Assembly (NCBI GenBank): GCA_022447665.1
Contig: JAKVAQ010000026.1
Coordinates: forward strand, 1-64,000
Reading direction: 5' to 3'
Source: Crocinitomicaceae bacterium
Lineage (GTDB): Bacteria > Bacteroidota > Bacteroidia > Flavobacteriales_D > Crocinitomicaceae
DNA: 64,000 nucleotides
A program made the position numbers and the translations under genes. Below the pieces are notes generated by a model, which saw nothing but the letters and a program-made list of their open reading frames with translations, searched no databases and had not been told where the DNA came from. Positions 12,014 through 61,650 of the stretch are shown here, piece by piece; the stretch's first letter is position 1; the number at the start of each line of letters is the position of its first letter.

Positions 12014-12397
12014 TTATATTTCTTCTACCTCGATCATTTTGAATGGAAGATCGATAATTGCCTGGTAATCTTCACCAGCTTCTTCCATATCTTCATCATC
12101 CTCCTCGAAATACCAATTTATTTTAACTTCAGTATTTCCAGAGTTAAGCTTCTCTAATTGCTTAAATAGATCAAGGATACATTTTGACGAAGAAGTATTG
12201 AAATACTCTAATTTAATATCCACAATAGTATTTGGCTGAGGCCCAGTTGCGTAAGCATCAATCCAATCATTAAGTGGCTTGTAAAATTCAATTGAGTTTT
12301 CAGGAATAGAACGCCCTTTTAACTCTAAAACACCATTCGCAGCGTCAAATTTTACTGTAGGTGTTTTTGCTGATCCGTCTAAGTTTAAGTTTTCCAT
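12014..12397 (-). CDS. siaC: SiaC-family regulatory phosphoprotein (DUF1987)
   Basis: This 127-residue protein matches the SiaC family in size and pattern: an N-terminal TPTVKFDAANGVLELKGRS strand pair, the YKPLNDWIDAY helix and YFNTSSSKCILDL. Thr68 of that last motif falls at the position described as the phosphorylated threonine of Pseudomonas aeruginosa SiaC. In that system SiaC is phosphorylated by SiaB and dephosphorylated by the PP2C phosphatase SiaA; unphosphorylated SiaC stimulates the diguanylate cyclase SiaD. Here siaB lies 4 bases upstream, but no siaA or siaD is adjacent. An acidic loop (EEDDEDMEEAGED, about 98-110) precedes the last strands. Confidence 0.88.
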   Translation of the reverse strand: MENLNLDGSAKTPTVKFDAANGVLELKGRSIPENSIEFYKPLNDWIDAYATGPQPNTIVDIKLEYFNTSSSKCILDLFKQLEKLNSGNTEVKINWYFEEDDEDMEEAGEDYQAIIDLPFKMIEVEEI

Positions 12398-12401
12398 AAT
12401 A

Positions 12402-12953
12402 TTAATTTGTTTCAGGGATACTAACAGCCAAACTAAAGAAGGTTGTAGTTTCCTTTACATCAAGAAAGTTATAATCTAATTTTTCTCCTGATTTTCGAGC
12501 AATATCGATCATACCGAGACCTGCAGTCCCTTTTTCTGACATTTGCCCCTCATTCAGGACTTTTTTGTAATACGTTTTTAATTCGTCCTTATTCATGGAA
12601 TTCACAAGATCCAATTTATCCTTTAAGGCAGAAACCTGATCGGACTCCATGTAATTTCCAGTTGTGATTAGGTAATGCGTTGGGGTTTTAGCAATCATAA
12701 GTAGAGCAGATCTTTCTTCTTTGCTAATGTTCTTAGTTGAATCCGAATCAATATGATGATAAAGATTTTGTAAACACTCAACTAAAATATTGAAAACCTT
12801 TTTTCGAGTTTTGGGCTTTTCGTCGATGTGCTCTAATTTCGACTCCATGATCTGCAAAATCGTAGTCAATAATTCAGAAGTCACCATACCCTTAAAGGAA
12901 AGTAGAACATTACGTTCCTCTAATTTTTTATATATGTCATATACCTGACTCAA
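12402..12953 (-). CDS. siaB: SiaB-family protein kinase
   Basis: This 183-residue protein has features of a GHKL-fold kinase: an N-box-like ECLQNLYHH helix (about 59-67) and a glycine-rich KGTAGLGMIDIARKSG segment near 141-156. This combination is typical of SiaB, which phosphorylates SiaC rather than a histidine-kinase partner. The frame begins with TTG at 12953; an in-frame stop a few codons upstream rules out an earlier ATG, and the next methionine (residue 23) would remove conserved sequence. It is the first gene of siaB-siaC-coaE-nnr. The siaC ATG is 4 bases beyond its stop. Confidence 0.85.
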   Translation of the reverse strand: MSQVYDIYKKLEERNVLLSFKGMVTSELLTTILQIMESKLEHIDEKPKTRKKVFNILVECLQNLYHHIDSDSTKNISKEERSALLMIAKTPTHYLITTGNYMESDQVSALKDKLDLVNSMNKDELKTYYKKVLNEGQMSEKGTAGLGMIDIARKSGEKLDYNFLDVKETTTFFSLAVSIPETN

Positions 12954-51207: not shown

Positions 51208-53169
51208 ATGCGAAATATTTTACTTCTATCTTTTTTATGGGCTACTTATTTACTTGCCCAAGGCCCAGCATATGATTGGACAGTGCAATTAACCGCAGTT
51301 GCCAATACATCACCTTTTTCAATTACCCTTGATTTTCATACGACTGAAACAGCTGGTACTGACTACCATATATTTAGAAAAGAAAAAGGAGCAAACGGTT
51401 GGGGTACAGCTATTGCAATACTGCCTACCACCGCATCAACGTATGATGACCCTACCGTTACGGAAGGTACTTCTTATGAGTATTTTGTACAAAGAAGGAC
51501 AGGAGGAACGATTCATTCTTGGGGATATATTGCAACAAGTATTATGGGAGAACTACCTGCCAATAGAGGTAATATTCTAGTCTTGGTTGACTCAACGCAC
51601 ATTGTTGATTTAGAGGGTAAACTCGATACCTTAGAGCAAGACTTGTACAATGACGGATGGATGCCAAATATCGTAGGAGTTGGAGCAACGGCTACTGTTC
51701 CCGATGTAAAAGGAATTGTTCAAATAGAAAATGCAAGCGTACCGAATTTACAAGCCCTTTACATCATTGGACATGTGGCAGTTCCATATTCTGGAAACTT
51801 GTATCCAGATGCACATACAGACCATGAAGGGGCTTGGCCTGCCGACGTTTATTATGGAGATATGGATGGGCTATGGTCTGATTTTTCTGTAGACAATACG
51901 GTGGCATCCGATTCGAGAAACCACAATGTTCCTGGTGATGGTAAGTTTGACCAATCCAAAGTTCCAGGTGCGATCGAGTTGCAAGTTTGTCGGGTTGATT
52001 TTCATGATCTTCCAGCATATTCAGAATCTGAATTAGATTTATTGAAGGCGTATTTAGATCGCGCTCATGAGTTTAAAATTGGGGAGTATGTACCAGAAGA
52101 AAGAGCACTTTTTGATCAAGGAAGTTTTTCTGGAATGGCAGAGGGCTTCGCACAAAATGCCCTGAGAAATTTCGTGCCTATGTTTGATACTACTAATATA
52201 GATGAGATTGATTACTTCACAAACTTAACATCCGAGAGCTACTTATGGTCGTACGGTTGTGGACCAGGGTCGCATACTTCTGCAGGTAGCTTAGACGGAG
52301 GAACTAGTTTAACTTCGGCTGAATTGGCTGGAACGCCAATGCAAACTACATTTACTATGTTGTTTGGTTCTTATTTTGGTGATTGGGATAGATCCAATAA
52401 TTTGTTGAGAGCAGTTTTAGCAAACGGTAAAACACTTTCTATTTCGTGGGCTGGCAGACCAAACTGGCATTACCACACCATGGCAATGGGAGATAATATT
52501 GGATTGGCTGCTAGAATGTCGATGGATGAGCTCGGGGATTATATATCACTCACGCTTGCCGGTGGTTTTGTTACCGGAGAAGGTGTTCATGTAGCCCAGC
52601 TTGGAGATCCTAGCTTAAGAATGTATTACATTCAGCCTCCTTCAGATCTTACGGTAACAAACGTATCAAATATAGCCGAATTAACATGGACTGCGAGTGC
52701 CGACGGAACAATAGATGGCTACAACGTATACCGAAGAACTTCTTCTACGTTGTGGGAAAAAGTAAACACTTCATTAATAGTAGGAACAAGCTATTCCGAT
52801 GCAACAATCGCAACTGCTGGAGATAATGAGTTTATGGTGAAGGCCGTTAAGCTTAAAACGAATGCGAGTGGTACATTTTTCAACGAAAGTTTAGGAACTA
52901 CAGGTACCGCTTTGTTTACAGTGAGTGACCAGATTCAGAAAGAAATCGAGATCGCAATTTTTCCTAATCCTACAAGTGATTTCGTACAAATAGAAGTGGA
53001 AGGTTTAGAACTAGTTAGAGTATTCTCTTTAAATGGGGTACTAGTAAGCGCACACCAAGTCGCAGGTAATACTTACAAATTGGATTTCTCTGGACTGAGC
53101 AGCGGTGTTTATGTTGTTGAAGTGAATACAGCTTTTGGAACTGTTCAACGCAAAATCTCAAAACTCTAA
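51208..53169 (+). CDS. type IX secretion substrate with C25-like middle domain
   Basis: The 653-residue protein has a signal peptide (1-18). A fibronectin III-like domain lies at about 24-110. The middle region (about 125-470) has LYIIGHVAVPYSG, WPADVYYGDMDG and CRVDFHDLPAYSESELDLLK, which resemble gingipain-type C25 peptidases. The usual catalytic His and Cys positions look altered (YGCGPGSH and LFGSYFGDW). A second FN3-like domain follows at about 475-560. The C-terminus, from FPNPT at 585-589 to RKISKL, is a type A T9SS sorting domain. The protein should be secreted across the outer membrane and anchored or released there. Confidence 0.8.
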   Translation: MRNILLLSFLWATYLLAQGPAYDWTVQLTAVANTSPFSITLDFHTTETAGTDYHIFRKEKGANGWGTAIAILPTTASTYDDPTVTEGTSYEYFVQRRTGGTIHSWGYIATSIMGELPANRGNILVLVDSTHIVDLEGKLDTLEQDLYNDGWMPNIVGVGATATVPDVKGIVQIENASVPNLQALYIIGHVAVPYSGNLYPDAHTDHEGAWPADVYYGDMDGLWSDFSVDNTVASDSRNHNVPGDGKFDQSKVPGAIELQVCRVDFHDLPAYSESELDLLKAYLDRAHEFKIGEYVPEERALFDQGSFSGMAEGFAQNALRNFVPMFDTTNIDEIDYFTNLTSESYLWSYGCGPGSHTSAGSLDGGTSLTSAELAGTPMQTTFTMLFGSYFGDWDRSNNLLRAVLANGKTLSISWAGRPNWHYHTMAMGDNIGLAARMSMDELGDYISLTLAGGFVTGEGVHVAQLGDPSLRMYYIQPPSDLTVTNVSNIAELTWTASADGTIDGYNVYRRTSSTLWEKVNTSLIVGTSYSDATIATAGDNEFMVKAVKLKTNASGTFFNESLGTTGTALFTVSDQIQKEIEIAIFPNPTSDFVQIEVEGLELVRVFSLNGVLVSAHQVAGNTYKLDFSGLSSGVYVVEVNTAFGTVQRKISKL

Positions 53170-55338: not shown

Positions 55339-58300
55339 CTATACTTTAACTCCAAGGATACAAACGTCATCTATTTGCTCAAGATCTCCTTGCCAAGCCA
55401 TAATTCTATCATTAAGAATCTTGTGCTGATCCTCCATTTTTTGTTGATGAATGTCAACTAATATTTCTTTAAACGCCTTGTACTTCAGTTTTTTACCTCT
55501 AGGCCCTCCAAATTGATCAGCATAACCATCAGAGAACAAGTAAATCGTATCTCCTTCATCCAATTGAATTTCATGGTTGGTGTATGCATATGACTGTTTT
55601 CCTAAATCAGCTCCAATAGCTACTTTATCTCCTTTGATCTCTGTTAACTCAGAGTTCTTGATAAGATAAATCGGGTTATTCGCGCCTGCAAATTCCAACT
55701 TATTGGAGTCCACATCCAGACAACAGATTGTTAAATCCATCCCGTCTCTAATCGTATGGTCTTCGGTAACCCCACTTTTTAATGTGTTGTGAAGAATTTT
55801 ATTAAGATTGTTTAGTATGTCAGCAGGTTTAATAATCCCTAGCTCATTTACAATTTGATTAAGGCTATTATGACCAATTAAACTTAAGAATGCTCCTGGT
55901 ACACCATGGCCAGTACAATCTACCACGGCAAAAAGAACCTTGTTCCCTACGCGCTCTAACCAATAAAAATCACCACTTACGATATCTTTAGGTTTGAATA
56001 GAACAAAAGCTTCGTTTAAATAACTTTCGACCAACCTATAGTCAGGTAAAGTTGCGTCCTGAATACGTTTAGCGTAACGAATACTATCCGTTAAATGCTT
56101 ATTTGTTTCTTCTATTATCTCTTTCTGCTCCAGAATTTCTAGCGTTCTCTCTTTTACCTTCTCTTCGAGGCTTTCATAGAGAACGGCATTATCAATAGCA
56201 GTGGCGATCGTTGTTGCCAATGATCTAAGTATGTTTAGATGATAATCTGTATAAGCGTTTGTTTTGTAGCTCTGTACTGTTAAAACTCCAATTACTTTTT
56301 CTTTTGCATTCAGCGGAAAGTAAACAATTGAGTTGGTCTCTTCTCCTTCTGTCACTTCAACATCCTGATCTAAGAAGTTTCCAAATTCCTTATTGTAATC
56401 ATGAATTATGATTTCTTTGTTTTGGTTGAAACAATTAGATGCAAGAAAATCCCCGTCTAATTTAAACTCTAAATTTTCTATTTCTCTTCCTTTCTCAATA
56501 AATCCAGGGAATATTAGCTTTTCATTGACCTTGTCATGGATTCCTATCCCAAAACATGTCGCATCCAATAAGGAGTTAATATTGTTGTACGCACTACTAA
56601 TAATTGTCTCTACTTCGAGTGATTCAACAACATCTCTTGAAATTTGACTAATCAGTTTGGTGTCATCATGGGCCTTTTCAATCTCCGCAGTACGTTTTTT
56701 AACCCTGTTCTCCATGTCCTGGTATAAACTAGCGTTTTCTAAAGCACTCGCAATGTAAACAGACATTGACTTAAGTATCGCCACATGGTTAGTAGAGTAG
56801 GAGTGAGTTTTAAAACTCTGAACCGTAATTACACCTATTCTGTTTCCTTTAGAAATGAGAGGAAGATAAATCATTGATTCAGGTTCTTCTCCTTCATTTG
56901 CCTCGTAATCTTGTTCAATATATTGCTGATGCTCTTTATTCCAGTCATTAATGATTATTTCCTTTGCGTCCCTGAAACAAAGCGCTGCAATCACATCGTC
57001 ATCCAAATTATAGCTGAAGTCATCAAATTTTTTCCCCCTTTCAATCAGTCCAGCAAAATGCAAGTCATTTTCTTTTTCTCTATATAATCCAATACCAAAT
57101 ACCGAAGCGTCCATCAGATTATTTACGTTCGTATAAACTTTGGAGATAATCTCCTTAGAAGATAAAACCGACGTGATTTCATTACCAATTTGACTTAACA
57201 ACTTGGTACTTTTAAAAGCTTTTTCAACTTCTTCTTTCTGCTTAACTACTTCTTGCGTTCTTTCTTTTACTTTCTCTTCTAGGCTTTCGTATAGCGTAGC
57301 ATTGTCAATAGCAGTAGCTATGGTCGTTGCTAAATTTCGAAGTAAGCTGCTTTGATATTCTGTGTATGCTTCTTTTTTGAAACTTTGAACCGTAATAAAA
57401 CCAATAGTTTTTTCACTAGTAATAAGCGGTAAATAGATAATCGACGTGGTGTCCTTTCCTTGAACCGGCGGAACCATGTCTTTTATGTATTTATGGTACT
57501 CGTTAAATAAGTCCTTTATGAATATCTCACGACTTTCTTGAAAACAAATAGTGGCCATGCGCTGAGGACCGTCTAATGGTACATAAACGTTTTCAAGCTG
57601 TATACCTTTCTCAATGAAACCAGGAATAAATAACCGATTACCTTCCTCTTCATAAATACCAATACCAAAGCAGGTTGCGTCTAGAATATCTTTAATCCCC
57701 TCATATACTTTTGAAATAATTGAGTCCACTTCAAGCGATTCTGCAATACTCTTCGATAATTGACTTAGGAGTTTGGTGTCTGAATATGTTTTTTGTATTT
57801 CAGCTGTCCTCTCAATTACACGCTTCTCCATGTTTTCATAGAGATTAGCATTTTCTAGTGCACTCGCAACGTATAATGAAAGCGTTCGAAGAATATTTAG
57901 TTCGTATTCGCCATAACTGTTTTCCTCAAAGCTTTGAACAGACATTACACCTATGGCCTGATCTTTTGAAATAAGAGGTAAATAAATCATTGAAACAGGA
58001 CGTTCTCCTTCCTGAATCTTATAATTTTTATCTGCAACATAATCGATATACTCGACATCCCAATTATTAATTACAAATTCATTATGTTCTTTGAAACATT
58101 TAGTTGCAATCCTTACATCATCTAGACTATAATCAAATTCATTTAATTTCTCTCCCTTTTCAATAGCGCCAGAGAATCGAAGTGTATTGGTTTCCTCCTT
58201 ATACATACCAATACCAAAAATTGAAGCATCCATAATGTCATTGATACTTTGGTATGCGTCAGAGATGATATCGGCTGAATTTAGTTTTGAGCTAATTTCC

Positions 58301-61300
58301 TTTCCGATGGCGCTAATTAATCTAGTGTTTTCGGCTGTCTTTTCAATTTGTTCCTTTTGCTTTACTACCTCGGAAGTTCTTTCTTTTACTTTCTCTTCAA
58401 GGTTTTCATAAAGCGTCGCATTTTCAATGGCAGAAGCAATTGTTGCTGCTAAACCTCTAAGAATATCCAAATGATACTCATTAAAGGCATTTGTTTTAAA
58501 ACTTTGAACCGTTAAAAGTCCAACAATCTTTTCTTTAGAAAATAAGGGAATGTATACAATTGAGGTCGAATCTTGACCCGCCACCGGAGCTTGTAATCCT
58601 GCGATATAGTCTTTATATTCTTTACTATAATCACTAATATTTATTTCTTTTTGATTCAAGAAACACCAAGAAGCTAGTCGTTGATCATCTAGAGAATAGT
58701 AGAAATCATCCATTTTAATACCATTCTCAATAAAACCTGGCATTCGTATACTGTTTTTATCAGCATCAAATATTCCGATTCCAAAACATGCTGCATCCAT
58801 TAAGTTGTTTACATTTTCATAAACACTTGATATAATGGATTCAATAGTAATCGATTTAGAAATGTCGGAATTAATTTGTGCAACGAGCTTGGTGTTCTGG
58901 TACGATTCTTCTATCTGTTCCTTCTGCTTGACTACCTCATCTGTTCGCCTCTTAACGATTTCCTCCATGTTCTCATATAGAGAGGCATTGTCTAAAGCTA
59001 TACCTGCATAGACTCCAATGGAACGAAGCATATCGACTTGATAGTCCTGATAGGAATCTTTTTCAAAGCTTTGTACCGTTATTGCACCAATTAGTTTTTC
59101 TTTAAATCTAATCGGTAAGTATATTAATGAGGTTACAGATTTTCCTACCTGAGGTTCTACATAGACATCAATATACTTGCTGTATTCATTGTCGAAATCA
59201 TTAATTACGATTTCTAATTCTTGGTTAAAGCAAACGCAGGCAAGCCTATTGTTGTCTTCTAGTTCATAAGTGGAAGCCTTTAATCGCTCGCCACTTTCGA
59301 TATAGCCCGGAAATACAATCGTATTAGAATTCTCATGAAAAATACCAATACCAAAACCTTCAGCATCCATTAACTTATTAATGTTGCTATACGCCGTTTC
59401 GATGATATTTTCTACAGAAAGTTGAGAAGTTATATTTTTGCCAACTTCGGATAAGAGTTTTGCATTCTCATAAGACCTGGAAATTTGCTCAGTTCTTTCC
59501 TTTACCTGATCTTCCATTTGCTCATAACGACGCGCGTTTAATAATGCAATAGTCGTGTACTGAGCAAGGGTCTTAACAATCGATAAGTGATATTGGGTAT
59601 AAGCTTGTTTATCAAAACACTGAATACTGATACAGCCTAGAACTTCTTTACCATCCCTTAGAGGGTAAAAGATTAATGAGTAAGGAAAGTCACCATCCAC
59701 AACCATTATCTCATCTACATACTTCTTGTAATCATTTTCATGATCCGTTATAAATATTTCCTTATTCTTTGTGATACACCACACAGAATAATTGTTCATA
59801 TTGGACATCGGGACAGTGATTCCTTCTAATCGATTCCCTTTCTCGTATTCATATTTATAATCTACTGTTTCGTTTTCTTTGTTCAACAATCTAACACCGA
59901 ATATGGTGGCATCCATTAACTGATTAACATTCTCATATAGCGTTTCAAAAACATCTTCAAAATTTAGAGTAGAAATTAACTCCTGACCAATTTTAGTTAA
60001 TAATTCTGAGTTATCGTAAGATGTTTTTAACTCTTCTGTTCTTGCCTTGACCCTGTTCTCCATGTTTCCGTAGAGGAAGGCATTGTCAAGAGCAATTGAA
60101 AGGTAGGATGCGAATGTGGTAAGCAAGTTGAAATGATGGTCACTAAAAGCATTTTTATGCTCATTCTGAACCAAAAGAACCCCGATTACTTCTTCTTTAA
60201 CCTTAAGTGGAATAAGGATGACAGATTCAGCTTGATCATTAATCACCTCTTCTTGACCAGGTAAATATTTGCTTATCTCTTGTGAGTAATCGTTGATGTG
60301 AATCGGAGTATCCTTCTTGACAGCATAAACTGGCAGATGTTTGCCGGCGTCATTCAGGGAATATTTAAAGAACTTATCTCTAGCTCCTCTATCTATGGCC
60401 AACGGAACGTTTAGTTCATTCTTCTCATAATTACAAACCCCGACAAAAATTCCCTGGGCTTGCATCAGACCATTAATGCGTTCATAAATAATGTTGAAGA
60501 TGGATTCTAAGTCTAGTGTCGATGTTATTTCATTACCGATTGAACTTAAGATCTTGACATCATCAAAAGCTTTTTTTAGATTCTCATTTTTATTGAGAAG
60601 TAATTCTTTTTCTTCTTGTACCTGCTCTAACTTACTTCTAAGTTTGAAATCTTTTATTTTTTTCGATTGAGTTTCGGCATTGTAAAGCTCTTTATGCTTG
60701 TAATAAGACTTTAAATGAGTTAAATGCTTCTTGATTGATTCGTCTTCATCATAAAGTTTAGAAAACCCTAAATGAGCACGATAAAGAAGTTCATTTGAAT
60801 TTAATTCTTCTCCAATTTCAATAACTTGATTTAAAACTTCTATTGCTCTAGTTTTATGCTGGGCATCAACAAGCGTCTCACCAATTCTTAGTTTTGCAAA
60901 GCCAATTCCAAGTTGAAAATTTGAGGCCTTCTTTAATTCAAGTGCTTTTTCAAAATGTTCTAGAGCTTTATCGAACTCGTTCAGCCTTTTATAAATTTTT
61001 CCAACGGCTTCATGACAAAAAATAAGAACTTGTTGTGAGCCGAGTTCATTGGAAACTTCTAAGCTCTTTCTTTTGTTCTCTAATGCGGATTCCAAGTTAT
61101 TCAAACCTAAATGCGCTTCGCCCAGACCGTCATATACCCGAGCCATGATCTGTTTGTCACCTGCTTTAATTGCATGAAGCTCAGCTTTTTTTAGCACTTC
61201 AAGTGCCTCATCATATTTTTTAGATGAGTAGAAGCCTGTACCAATGCCATTGTATGCCGCCGCAATACCACGCTCATCATTTAACTGTTCAAATATCTGA

Positions 61301-61650
61301 AGACTTTTCCGAGCATAGGTGCGCTGCTTATCATAGTCAGCTAAGAAGAAAAATATAAGAGACAAGGTATACTGGACTTCCGCTTCCTTTTCTAACTGAT
61401 TTGTTTTGCGCAGTTGATCTACTGAAAGGAAACAATACTCTAACGCTTTTTCATAATCAGAAATCCAAGCATATGAAGTACCTATAATTCCGTTCGACCA
61501 AGCAATTCCTTCGTCGTATCCACTTTCTTCTGAAAGGGTAAGATTAACTAGTGCAGTTTCTAGGGACTGCTGTGGATCTACACGTACATTCTTCCACGCA
61601 TTATCATTGGAAGAATCAATTTTTAGAATTAATGTATTGACCGTAGACAA
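55339..61650 (-). CDS. giant TPR / eight-GAF / SpoIIE-type phosphatase
   Basis: The 2103-residue soluble protein starts with TTG; no methionine codon lies near the start. Residues 20-330 hold about six TPR units. A coiled coil leads into eight GAF domains centred near residues 440, 625, 805, 995, 1185, 1365, 1555 and 1740, each followed by a heptad-like linker with KERT. The C-terminus (about 1850-2103) is a SpoIIE/PP2C phosphatase with metal aspartates 1894 (SGDFYW), 1911 (VVDCTGHG), 2041 (SDGYADQ) and 2095 (IDDVCIL). GAF domains probably sense small ligands or redox state and control dephosphorylation of a Ser/Thr phosphoprotein. The plsC-like gene follows. Confidence 0.93.
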   Translation of the reverse strand: MSTVNTLILKIDSSNDNAWKNVRVDPQQSLETALVNLTLSEESGYDEGIAWSNGIIGTSYAWISDYEKALEYCFLSVDQLRKTNQLEKEAEVQYTLSLIFFFLADYDKQRTYARKSLQIFEQLNDERGIAAAYNGIGTGFYSSKKYDEALEVLKKAELHAIKAGDKQIMARVYDGLGEAHLGLNNLESALENKRKSLEVSNELGSQQVLIFCHEAVGKIYKRLNEFDKALEHFEKALELKKASNFQLGIGFAKLRIGETLVDAQHKTRAIEVLNQVIEIGEELNSNELLYRAHLGFSKLYDEDESIKKHLTHLKSYYKHKELYNAETQSKKIKDFKLRSKLEQVQEEKELLLNKNENLKKAFDDVKILSSIGNEITSTLDLESIFNIIYERINGLMQAQGIFVGVCNYEKNELNVPLAIDRGARDKFFKYSLNDAGKHLPVYAVKKDTPIHINDYSQEISKYLPGQEEVINDQAESVILIPLKVKEEVIGVLLVQNEHKNAFSDHHFNLLTTFASYLSIALDNAFLYGNMENRVKARTEELKTSYDNSELLTKIGQELISTLNFEDVFETLYENVNQLMDATIFGVRLLNKENETVDYKYEYEKGNRLEGITVPMSNMNNYSVWCITKNKEIFITDHENDYKKYVDEIMVVDGDFPYSLIFYPLRDGKEVLGCISIQCFDKQAYTQYHLSIVKTLAQYTTIALLNARRYEQMEDQVKERTEQISRSYENAKLLSEVGKNITSQLSVENIIETAYSNINKLMDAEGFGIGIFHENSNTIVFPGYIESGERLKASTYELEDNNRLACVCFNQELEIVINDFDNEYSKYIDVYVEPQVGKSVTSLIYLPIRFKEKLIGAITVQSFEKDSYQDYQVDMLRSIGVYAGIALDNASLYENMEEIVKRRTDEVVKQKEQIEESYQNTKLVAQINSDISKSITIESIISSVYENVNNLMDAACFGIGIFDADKNSIRMPGFIENGIKMDDFYYSLDDQRLASWCFLNQKEINISDYSKEYKDYIAGLQAPVAGQDSTSIVYIPLFSKEKIVGLLTVQSFKTNAFNEYHLDILRGLAATIASAIENATLYENLEEKVKERTSEVVKQKEQIEKTAENTRLISAIGKEISSKLNSADIISDAYQSINDIMDASIFGIGMYKEETNTLRFSGAIEKGEKLNEFDYSLDDVRIATKCFKEHNEFVINNWDVEYIDYVADKNYKIQEGERPVSMIYLPLISKDQAIGVMSVQSFEENSYGEYELNILRTLSLYVASALENANLYENMEKRVIERTAEIQKTYSDTKLLSQLSKSIAESLEVDSIISKVYEGIKDILDATCFGIGIYEEEGNRLFIPGFIEKGIQLENVYVPLDGPQRMATICFQESREIFIKDLFNEYHKYIKDMVPPVQGKDTTSIIYLPLITSEKTIGFITVQSFKKEAYTEYQSSLLRNLATTIATAIDNATLYESLEEKVKERTQEVVKQKEEVEKAFKSTKLLSQIGNEITSVLSSKEIISKVYTNVNNLMDASVFGIGLYREKENDLHFAGLIERGKKFDDFSYNLDDDVIAALCFRDAKEIIINDWNKEHQQYIEQDYEANEGEEPESMIYLPLISKGNRIGVITVQSFKTHSYSTNHVAILKSMSVYIASALENASLYQDMENRVKKRTAEIEKAHDDTKLISQISRDVVESLEVETIISSAYNNINSLLDATCFGIGIHDKVNEKLIFPGFIEKGREIENLEFKLDGDFLASNCFNQNKEIIIHDYNKEFGNFLDQDVEVTEGEETNSIVYFPLNAKEKVIGVLTVQSYKTNAYTDYHLNILRSLATTIATAIDNAVLYESLEEKVKERTLEILEQKEIIEETNKHLTDSIRYAKRIQDATLPDYRLVESYLNEAFVLFKPKDIVSGDFYWLERVGNKVLFAVVDCTGHGVPGAFLSLIGHNSLNQIVNELGIIKPADILNNLNKILHNTLKSGVTEDHTIRDGMDLTICCLDVDSNKLEFAGANNPIYLIKNSELTEIKGDKVAIGADLGKQSYAYTNHEIQLDEGDTIYLFSDGYADQFGGPRGKKLKYKAFKEILVDIHQQKMEDQHKILNDRIMAWQGDLEQIDDVCILGVKV

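Follow-up and report, generated by a model that had tools for sequence, protein, structure and literature searches.

Introduction

In Pseudomonas aeruginosa, SiaA and SiaB form a phosphatase/kinase couple that acts on T68 of SiaC, and the PP2C domain of SiaA is dimeric, according to the part of the published account available to us (PMC7647112). The diguanylate cyclase SiaD is described, in the accessible portion of a second report, as being activated when unphosphorylated SiaC binds its stalk helices (PMC8457831). Here we describe a gene at positions 55339-61650, reverse strand, of the window, by which we mean the whole stretch of 64,000 nucleotides analysed (positions 1-64,000 of contig JAKVAQ010000026.1, assembly GCA_022447665.1, Crocinitomicaceae bacterium). 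Its product is a sensor phosphatase with TPRs, eight GAF domains and a C-terminal SpoIIE/PPM domain that, among solved structures, is closest to the PPM domain of SiaA (34% identity over the aligned part); homologues of SiaB and SiaC are also encoded in the window. The sensory parts differ: for SiaA, a HAMP domain and two membrane-spanning regions are described (PMC7647112), whereas the window protein has TPRs and eight GAFs, with no apparent span.

Other described systems resemble the chain in one respect or another. PPM phosphatases are reported to be dimerized and activated by coiled-coil linkers, and the tandem-GAF phosphatase RsbZ of Clostridioides difficile has been modelled in this way; in the portion of that report at hand, RsbZ and other GAF-PPM phosphatases carry tandem GAFs only, with no TPR named, and serve the general stress response (PMC12143880). 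The seven-GAF cyanobacteriochrome PtxD of Nostoc punctiforme likewise has many GAFs in one chain, but the accessible part of its description makes it a bilin-binding phototaxis receptor (PMC5812497), whereas the window protein is a phosphatase by class. In PadC enzymes, which couple a phytochrome sensor to a diguanylate cyclase, the linkers are heptad-stepped too, 54% of the lengths being divisible by 7 and 38% lying at -4 in the section of the study available (PMC9587094), a far looser rule than that found here. Multi-GAF chains, tandem-GAF PPM phosphatases and heptad-stepped linkers are thus already known. Apparently new, in the literature searched, are an eight-GAF phosphatase, the change of GAF number by pairs and a near-strict linker rule across a family; neither a TPR-GAF-SpoIIE chain nor an eight-GAF chain was found in the papers searched, most subscription papers lying outside the search.

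Results

Domain organization of the window protein

The initial annotation had described one uninterrupted frame of 2103 codons with TPRs, eight GAF domains and a SpoIIE phosphatase whose metal aspartates were intact, and both Pfam and a 35-sequence alignment of relatives bear this out. The single open frame runs from a putative TTG start, and Pfam places TPRs first (TPR_12, three stretches), then the GAFs, then SpoIIE at residues 1903-2103 (E = 1.5e-22). A domain search for at least six GAF folds had been proposed as a check; each of three GAF models (GAF_2, with E = 1.8e-102, GAF_3 and GAF) finds eight stretches, which places the protein among multi-GAF sensors, taken as chains with six GAFs or more. 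A profile made from the eight units recovers each of them, by construction, at E = 1e-64 or better; from GAF2 onward the units start 182-190 residues apart, and protein identity between the eight units is 26-55%. The folds that AlphaFold gives for GAF1, GAF2, GAF7 and GAF8, half of the set, match solved GAFs.

All parts of the gene lie on the reverse strand. The TPR cap (about residues 1-330; 60661-61650), as seen by Pfam and AlphaFold, has 15 helices followed by a 72-residue helix (306-377) into GAF1. The GAFs, delimited by the unit profile and assigned to the types discussed below, are GAF1 (residues 362-524, odd type A; 60079-60567), GAF2 (545-707, even type X; 59530-60018), GAF3 (727-890, odd type B; 58981-59472), GAF4 (917-1079, even type Y; 58414-58902), GAF5 (1107-1269, odd type C; 57844-58332), GAF6 (1289-1452, even type Y; 57295-57786), GAF7 (1479-1641, odd type C; 56728-57216) and GAF8 (1661-1822, even type Y; 56185-56670). 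The closest unit to GAF7 is GAF5 (55% over the unit) and that to GAF8 is GAF6 (52% over the unit). The phosphatase occupies residues 1856-2103 (55342-56085).

The match to PF07228 scores 80.9 bits against a cut-off of 25 and covers positions 3-191 of the 192 in the profile. D1894, D1911, D1969, D1972, D2041 and D2095, all present in the window protein, are invariant across the alignment of relatives, and we take these six aspartates, as in the SpoIIE/PPM family, to be metal ligands. Profile and aspartates together place the domain in the SpoIIE/PPM phosphatase class, with activity predicted from sequence. The claim that the chain has no membrane segment also holds: no span is apparent, the highest mean hydropathy over 19 residues being 1.69, at residues 476-494 within GAF1.

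GAF domains change in number by pairs

In order to compare the chain with its relatives, the TPR-GAF1 part was used as a query against 200 genomes of the family, and an alignment of that part against 399 genomes of the order, 395 of the class and 395 of the phylum; the sets overlap, and the window's genus is represented by its own genome alone. Among the matches listed, 18 of the 395 class genomes and one of the 395 phylum genomes had E <= 1e-80, the window's own genome being within both counts. The chains counted were 24 of the 25 long order-level matches, one from the family search (G199) and all 17 others at class level; the long order-level match left out (G033:C69) is truncated where its contig stops. 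This gave, among the matches listed, 42 complete TPR-(GAF)n-SpoIIE chains from 40 genomes, in which n is 6 (15 chains), 2 (13), 4 (8), 1 (5) and, at its highest, 8 (the window chain only). The six named loci with close relatives are all from metagenome-assembled genomes: Crocinitomix sp., Crocinitomicaceae bacterium, Flavobacteriales (two), Bacteroidia and Bacteroidetes. The rarity of eight GAFs supposed in the initial annotation therefore stands, at one chain in 42, whereas the architecture as such is not unique, since it recurs with fewer GAFs; no characterized member was found in the literature searched.

None of the 42 complete chains has n = 3, 5 or 7. By parsimony on a tree inferred from the TPR and phosphatase regions, n changed at least nine times (at least eight without the n = 1 subfamily), and it is clustered on that tree, where shuffling gives 22.3 changes on average. 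In a tree built from all 161 GAFs, those at odd and even positions form separate lineages: parity changes three times, whereas 500 rounds of shuffling within proteins gave 52.7 changes on average and never fewer than 40. This is a single FastTree tree, and many of its branches are weak. When each GAF is assigned to its nearest window exemplar, the odd/even rule is kept in 139 of 148 GAFs, less strictly than on the tree, and position 2 is occupied by type X in every one of the 37 chains with n > 1. The order of types is AX-BY-CY-CY in the window protein, AX-BY-CY in G004, a relative that shares its mnmA neighbour, AX-CX-BY in G020 and AX-BX-CY in G069. Whole pairs of unlike GAFs thus seem to have been gained, lost and exchanged, and the surplus of two GAFs in the window protein equals one more CY pair, to judge from the closeness of GAF5 to GAF7 and of GAF6 to GAF8.

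Altogether, 51 GAF-bearing chains were measured, and 42 of them combine TPR with SpoIIE. Nine were left out: G033a, truncated where its contig stops; G033b (without TPR, n = 4, linkers 26, 19 and 26); G033c, which starts at a contig end (without SpoIIE, linkers 33 and 19); G025 (without TPR, linker 26); G219, G230 and G271 (without TPR or SpoIIE, linker 26, each with a third, weak GAF match); and G234 and G277, which lack TPRs and have three GAFs, linkers of 19 and 1 and another segment before SpoIIE, so that their odd n arises in chains that are not of the TPR family. The chain count also excludes five paralogues with two GAFs, a linker of 26 and a SpoIIE spacing of 25, which belong to a different subfamily. 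Retained, though flawed, were G265, whose frame ends inside SpoIIE, and the four-GAF relative G057, with an in-frame stop in its TPR region (a TAA, at locus L058).

Linkers differ by one heptad

Of the 119 linkers between neighbouring GAFs, 71 have 26 residues and 46 have 19, so that 117 fall into two lengths one heptad apart. Both exceptional linkers (8 and 1 residues) belong to a single chain, G430; they are 11 and 18 short of 19, which roughly keeps the helix phase. At the two ends of the 42 chains, the TPR-to-GAF1 spacing is 31 (35 chains), 38 (5), 24 (1) or 30 (1), and the GAF-to-SpoIIE spacing is 32 (36), 25 (1) or 21 (5). A second measure, taken between sequence anchors so as not to depend solely on the profile ends, gave distances of 55 (39) or 62 (59) in 98 of the 101 measurable junctions, the others being 58, 44 and 37. 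As a control on length, the GAF cores take every value from 161 to 167 and changed in length 28 times or more on the GAF tree; on the same tree the length of the linker before a GAF changed at least eight times and that of the linker after it at least 13 times.

Positions 2, 9, 16 and 23 are hydrophobic in all 71 long linkers, and arginine is found at position 12 in 116 of the 117 linkers, long and short. In the AlphaFold models, 57-residue helices connect GAF7 to GAF8 (161-217 of the model) and GAF1 to GAF2 (504-560), and there is a further long helix at 343-380, besides the one leading from the TPRs. Because the linkers are 19 or 26 residues long, one heptad apart, and the models show such helices, the results support a spine predicted to run through the chain as a continuous, in-register coiled coil. 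The initial annotation had supposed that the GAFs might act as a cooperative spring along a coiled-coil stalk; the stalk is upheld by the heptad-stepped linkers, their hydrophobic residue at every seventh position and the long model helices, whereas what changes is not the single GAF but two unlike GAFs together.

The phosphatase is nearest to SiaA among solved structures, with SiaB- and SiaC-type genes in the genome

SiaA-PP2C (6k4e) is the best solved match to the PPM domain both by sequence, where E is 3.9e-42 against 0.0018 for the next, and by fold, where Z is 34.1 against 24.0 (243 residues, 1.6 Å). The sequence alignment is free of gaps from the linker into the phosphatase, and among solved structures the domain is nearer to SiaA than to RssB, the RsbU domain of Rv1364c or SpoIIE. 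Elsewhere in the window, on the reverse strand, lie genes for a SiaC-family phosphoprotein (12014-12397), a candidate substrate in which T68 lines up with the T68 of the P. aeruginosa protein, and for a DUF6272 protein (12402-12953), a candidate opposing kinase. The latter matches the SiaB chain of 6kko (chain A; E = 1.4e-17), an entry that also contains SiaC (chain C); Pfam labels DUF6272 a family of unknown function despite this match.

The window's own genome (4.06 Mb) has 44 matches to SpoIIE, of which a few are partial, eight SiaC matches, with threonine or serine at the phosphosite in seven and isoleucine in the eighth, and six DUF6272 domains in four frames. It also has five STAS matches, two of them in short frames (143 and 122 residues), and 12 HATPase_c_2 matches, one of which is strong and in a short frame (133 residues). 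Sensor phosphatases are thus many for few substrates (eight SiaC and two short-frame STAS). One SpoIIE gene of this genome is next to a SiaB-SiaC pair (C1:193901-195836). Three neighbours lie at L120:6761-10073, namely a frame with a double DUF6272, a gene of the SiaC type and, in convergent orientation, a SpoIIE gene; in the same genome, SpoIIE phosphatases are fused to a solute-binding domain (L119:3819-5639) and to a Y_Y_Y domain (L114:8175-11426).

Since SiaA is the closest solved phosphatase and SiaB and SiaC genes occur in the window and in the genome, a SiaC protein is favoured as the probable substrate. The Pfam list of the window protein contains no HAMP domain, which in SiaA accompanies the membrane spans, and the siaB and siaC genes are not adjacent to the phosphatase gene; for this last reason we file the protein as SiaA-like in its phosphatase domain and not as a SiaA orthologue.

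Candidate ligands of the GAF domains

The best Foldseek matches to GAF pairs of the window protein are the tandem GAFs of PDE5, PDE2, PDE6 and CyaB1, of which 3mf0 superposes over both GAFs, though loosely (Z 22.6, root mean square deviation 10.6, 325 residues). These proteins have one pair only, and the NKFDE-type motif, which we take to mark cyclic-nucleotide GAFs, was found by regular expression in none of the 161 GAFs of the TPR-GAF family, which are not classed as cyclic-nucleotide GAFs by that motif. The best solved GAF by profile is nevertheless the cAMP-bound GAF of Lcd1 (5w10; E = 3.4e-14, Z 18.6), and cAMP therefore remains a candidate ligand. A cysteine at column 81 of the GAF alignment, presumably away from the bilin position, is present in 140 of the 161 GAFs and in none of the nine type A first GAFs examined.

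Genomic context

A homologue with the same upstream neighbour, mnmA, occurs in five other genomes (G004, G056, G040, G069 and G008), in each case with six GAFs, so that the comparison of eight GAFs with six is one between genes with a common neighbour. On the 7.2-kb contig of the sister chain G095 (n = 2) the neighbours seen in the window are absent, and the comparison of eight with two may therefore be between paralogues. An assembly artefact was considered as the source of the long array. The longest exact DNA repeat within the gene is 23 bases, located in two linkers, and this, with the identity of the units and the six-GAF homologues that share mnmA, makes such an artefact unlikely. As regards a mobile origin, there was no phage match, and identity is below 60% in each of the 198 plasmid records that matched, none of which spans 80% in one place.

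On the same strand, 5 bases downstream of the phosphatase gene, lies an acyltransferase gene (PF01553; 54002-55333), a homologue of which stands directly 3' of the phosphatase in two of the 15 six-GAF chains (G008 and G020), within the flanks fetched. Beyond it, at 51208-53169 on the forward strand, is a gene for a protein bearing a Por_Secre_tail sorting domain, which we take to be a type IX secretion signal.

Discussion

We lean, with modest confidence, towards a soluble, parallel homodimeric rod in which GAF pairs on a coiled-coil spine control a PPM phosphatase that acts on a SiaC-type protein. The TPR cap would bind a protein or peptide partner, and the GAF pairs would be placed along the continuous spine of the dimer; binding of a ligand or partner could make the spine more or less stable or alter its register, and such a change would control the pairing, and with it the activation, of the C-terminal phosphatases. 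With the spine phase-locked, any GAF pair could influence the switch. The active phosphatase would then dephosphorylate a SiaC-type protein previously phosphorylated by a SiaB-type kinase, and the freed SiaC might bind its target. A wider proposal, which we put forward tentatively, is that the array is a modular rod of unlike-GAF pairs on an unbroken, phase-locked coiled coil, which lineages would adjust by gaining, dropping or swapping pairs as wholes, so that the inputs to one phosphatase may evolve by twos without breaking transmission, and that the four-pair window protein, the longest found, may feed a SiaC switch.

Several observations weigh against these proposals. In the linkers, T13 and K20 are polar, though they fall on d positions in our register, and the AlphaFold models are of monomers with low predicted template modelling scores (pTM 0.42 and 0.51), for which reason no dimer is seen in them. 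G430 breaks both rules, having the two exceptional linkers and, in third place, a GAF of even type. The subfamily with n = 1 is odd, and its SpoIIE spacing of 21 is no heptad step from 32; this step of -11 equals -4 modulo 7, as in the PadC linkers of the study seen in part (PMC9587094). As to the substrate, the SiaB-SiaC pair of the window is 42 kb from the phosphatase gene rather than adjacent to it, a phmmer search with the window's two proteins found no SiaC or SiaB homologue beside the phosphatases of the TPR-GAF family in the fetched loci (flanks of a few kb), and up to 44 SpoIIE matches against eight for SiaC leave the pairing of enzyme and substrate ambiguous.

The output could instead be that of an RsbU-type phosphatase, acting on a classical STAS anti-anti-sigma protein and leading to the release of a sigma factor. 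Membership of the SpoIIE family would fit, as would the STAS matches of the genome and the strong HATPase_c_2 match in a short frame, but SiaA is by far the closer solved structure by sequence and by fold, and SiaC matches outnumber short-frame STAS matches by eight to two; we think such an output improbable. A different possibility concerns the array itself, which might serve mainly as a ruler or scaffold that spaces the TPR cap from the phosphatase, with most GAFs now binding nothing. The range of n from 2 to 8 between like ends is what a ruler would give, and some GAFs are divergent, since type A GAF1 lacks the cysteine kept by most others; against this, the cores are constant at 161-167 residues with conserved positions common to the odd and even classes, and the separate odd and even lineages require more than length, so that a mere spacer seems unlikely.

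Rather unlikely, in our estimation, is a neutral ratchet, in which whole pairs are duplicated or lost by recombination in the linkers, selection removes only the out-of-phase products and n itself has no function. The position of the longest exact repeat in two linkers would suit it, as would the eight or more changes of n by parsimony among chains with n > 1 and the type order that varies among relatives. Free recombination in linkers should, however, also yield odd n, which none of the 37 chains with n > 1 has, and n is clustered on the tree, although shared descent alone would suffice for that.

How a signal travels along long chains of sensor domains is an open question, to which natural chains of 2, 4, 6 and 8 GAFs are well suited. 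With like ends and linkers that differ by one heptad, they allow direct tests of how a signal is passed on over distance and of what the pair contributes. SiaABC-type switches are a likely output of a large and apparently uncharacterized set of phosphatases in one genome.

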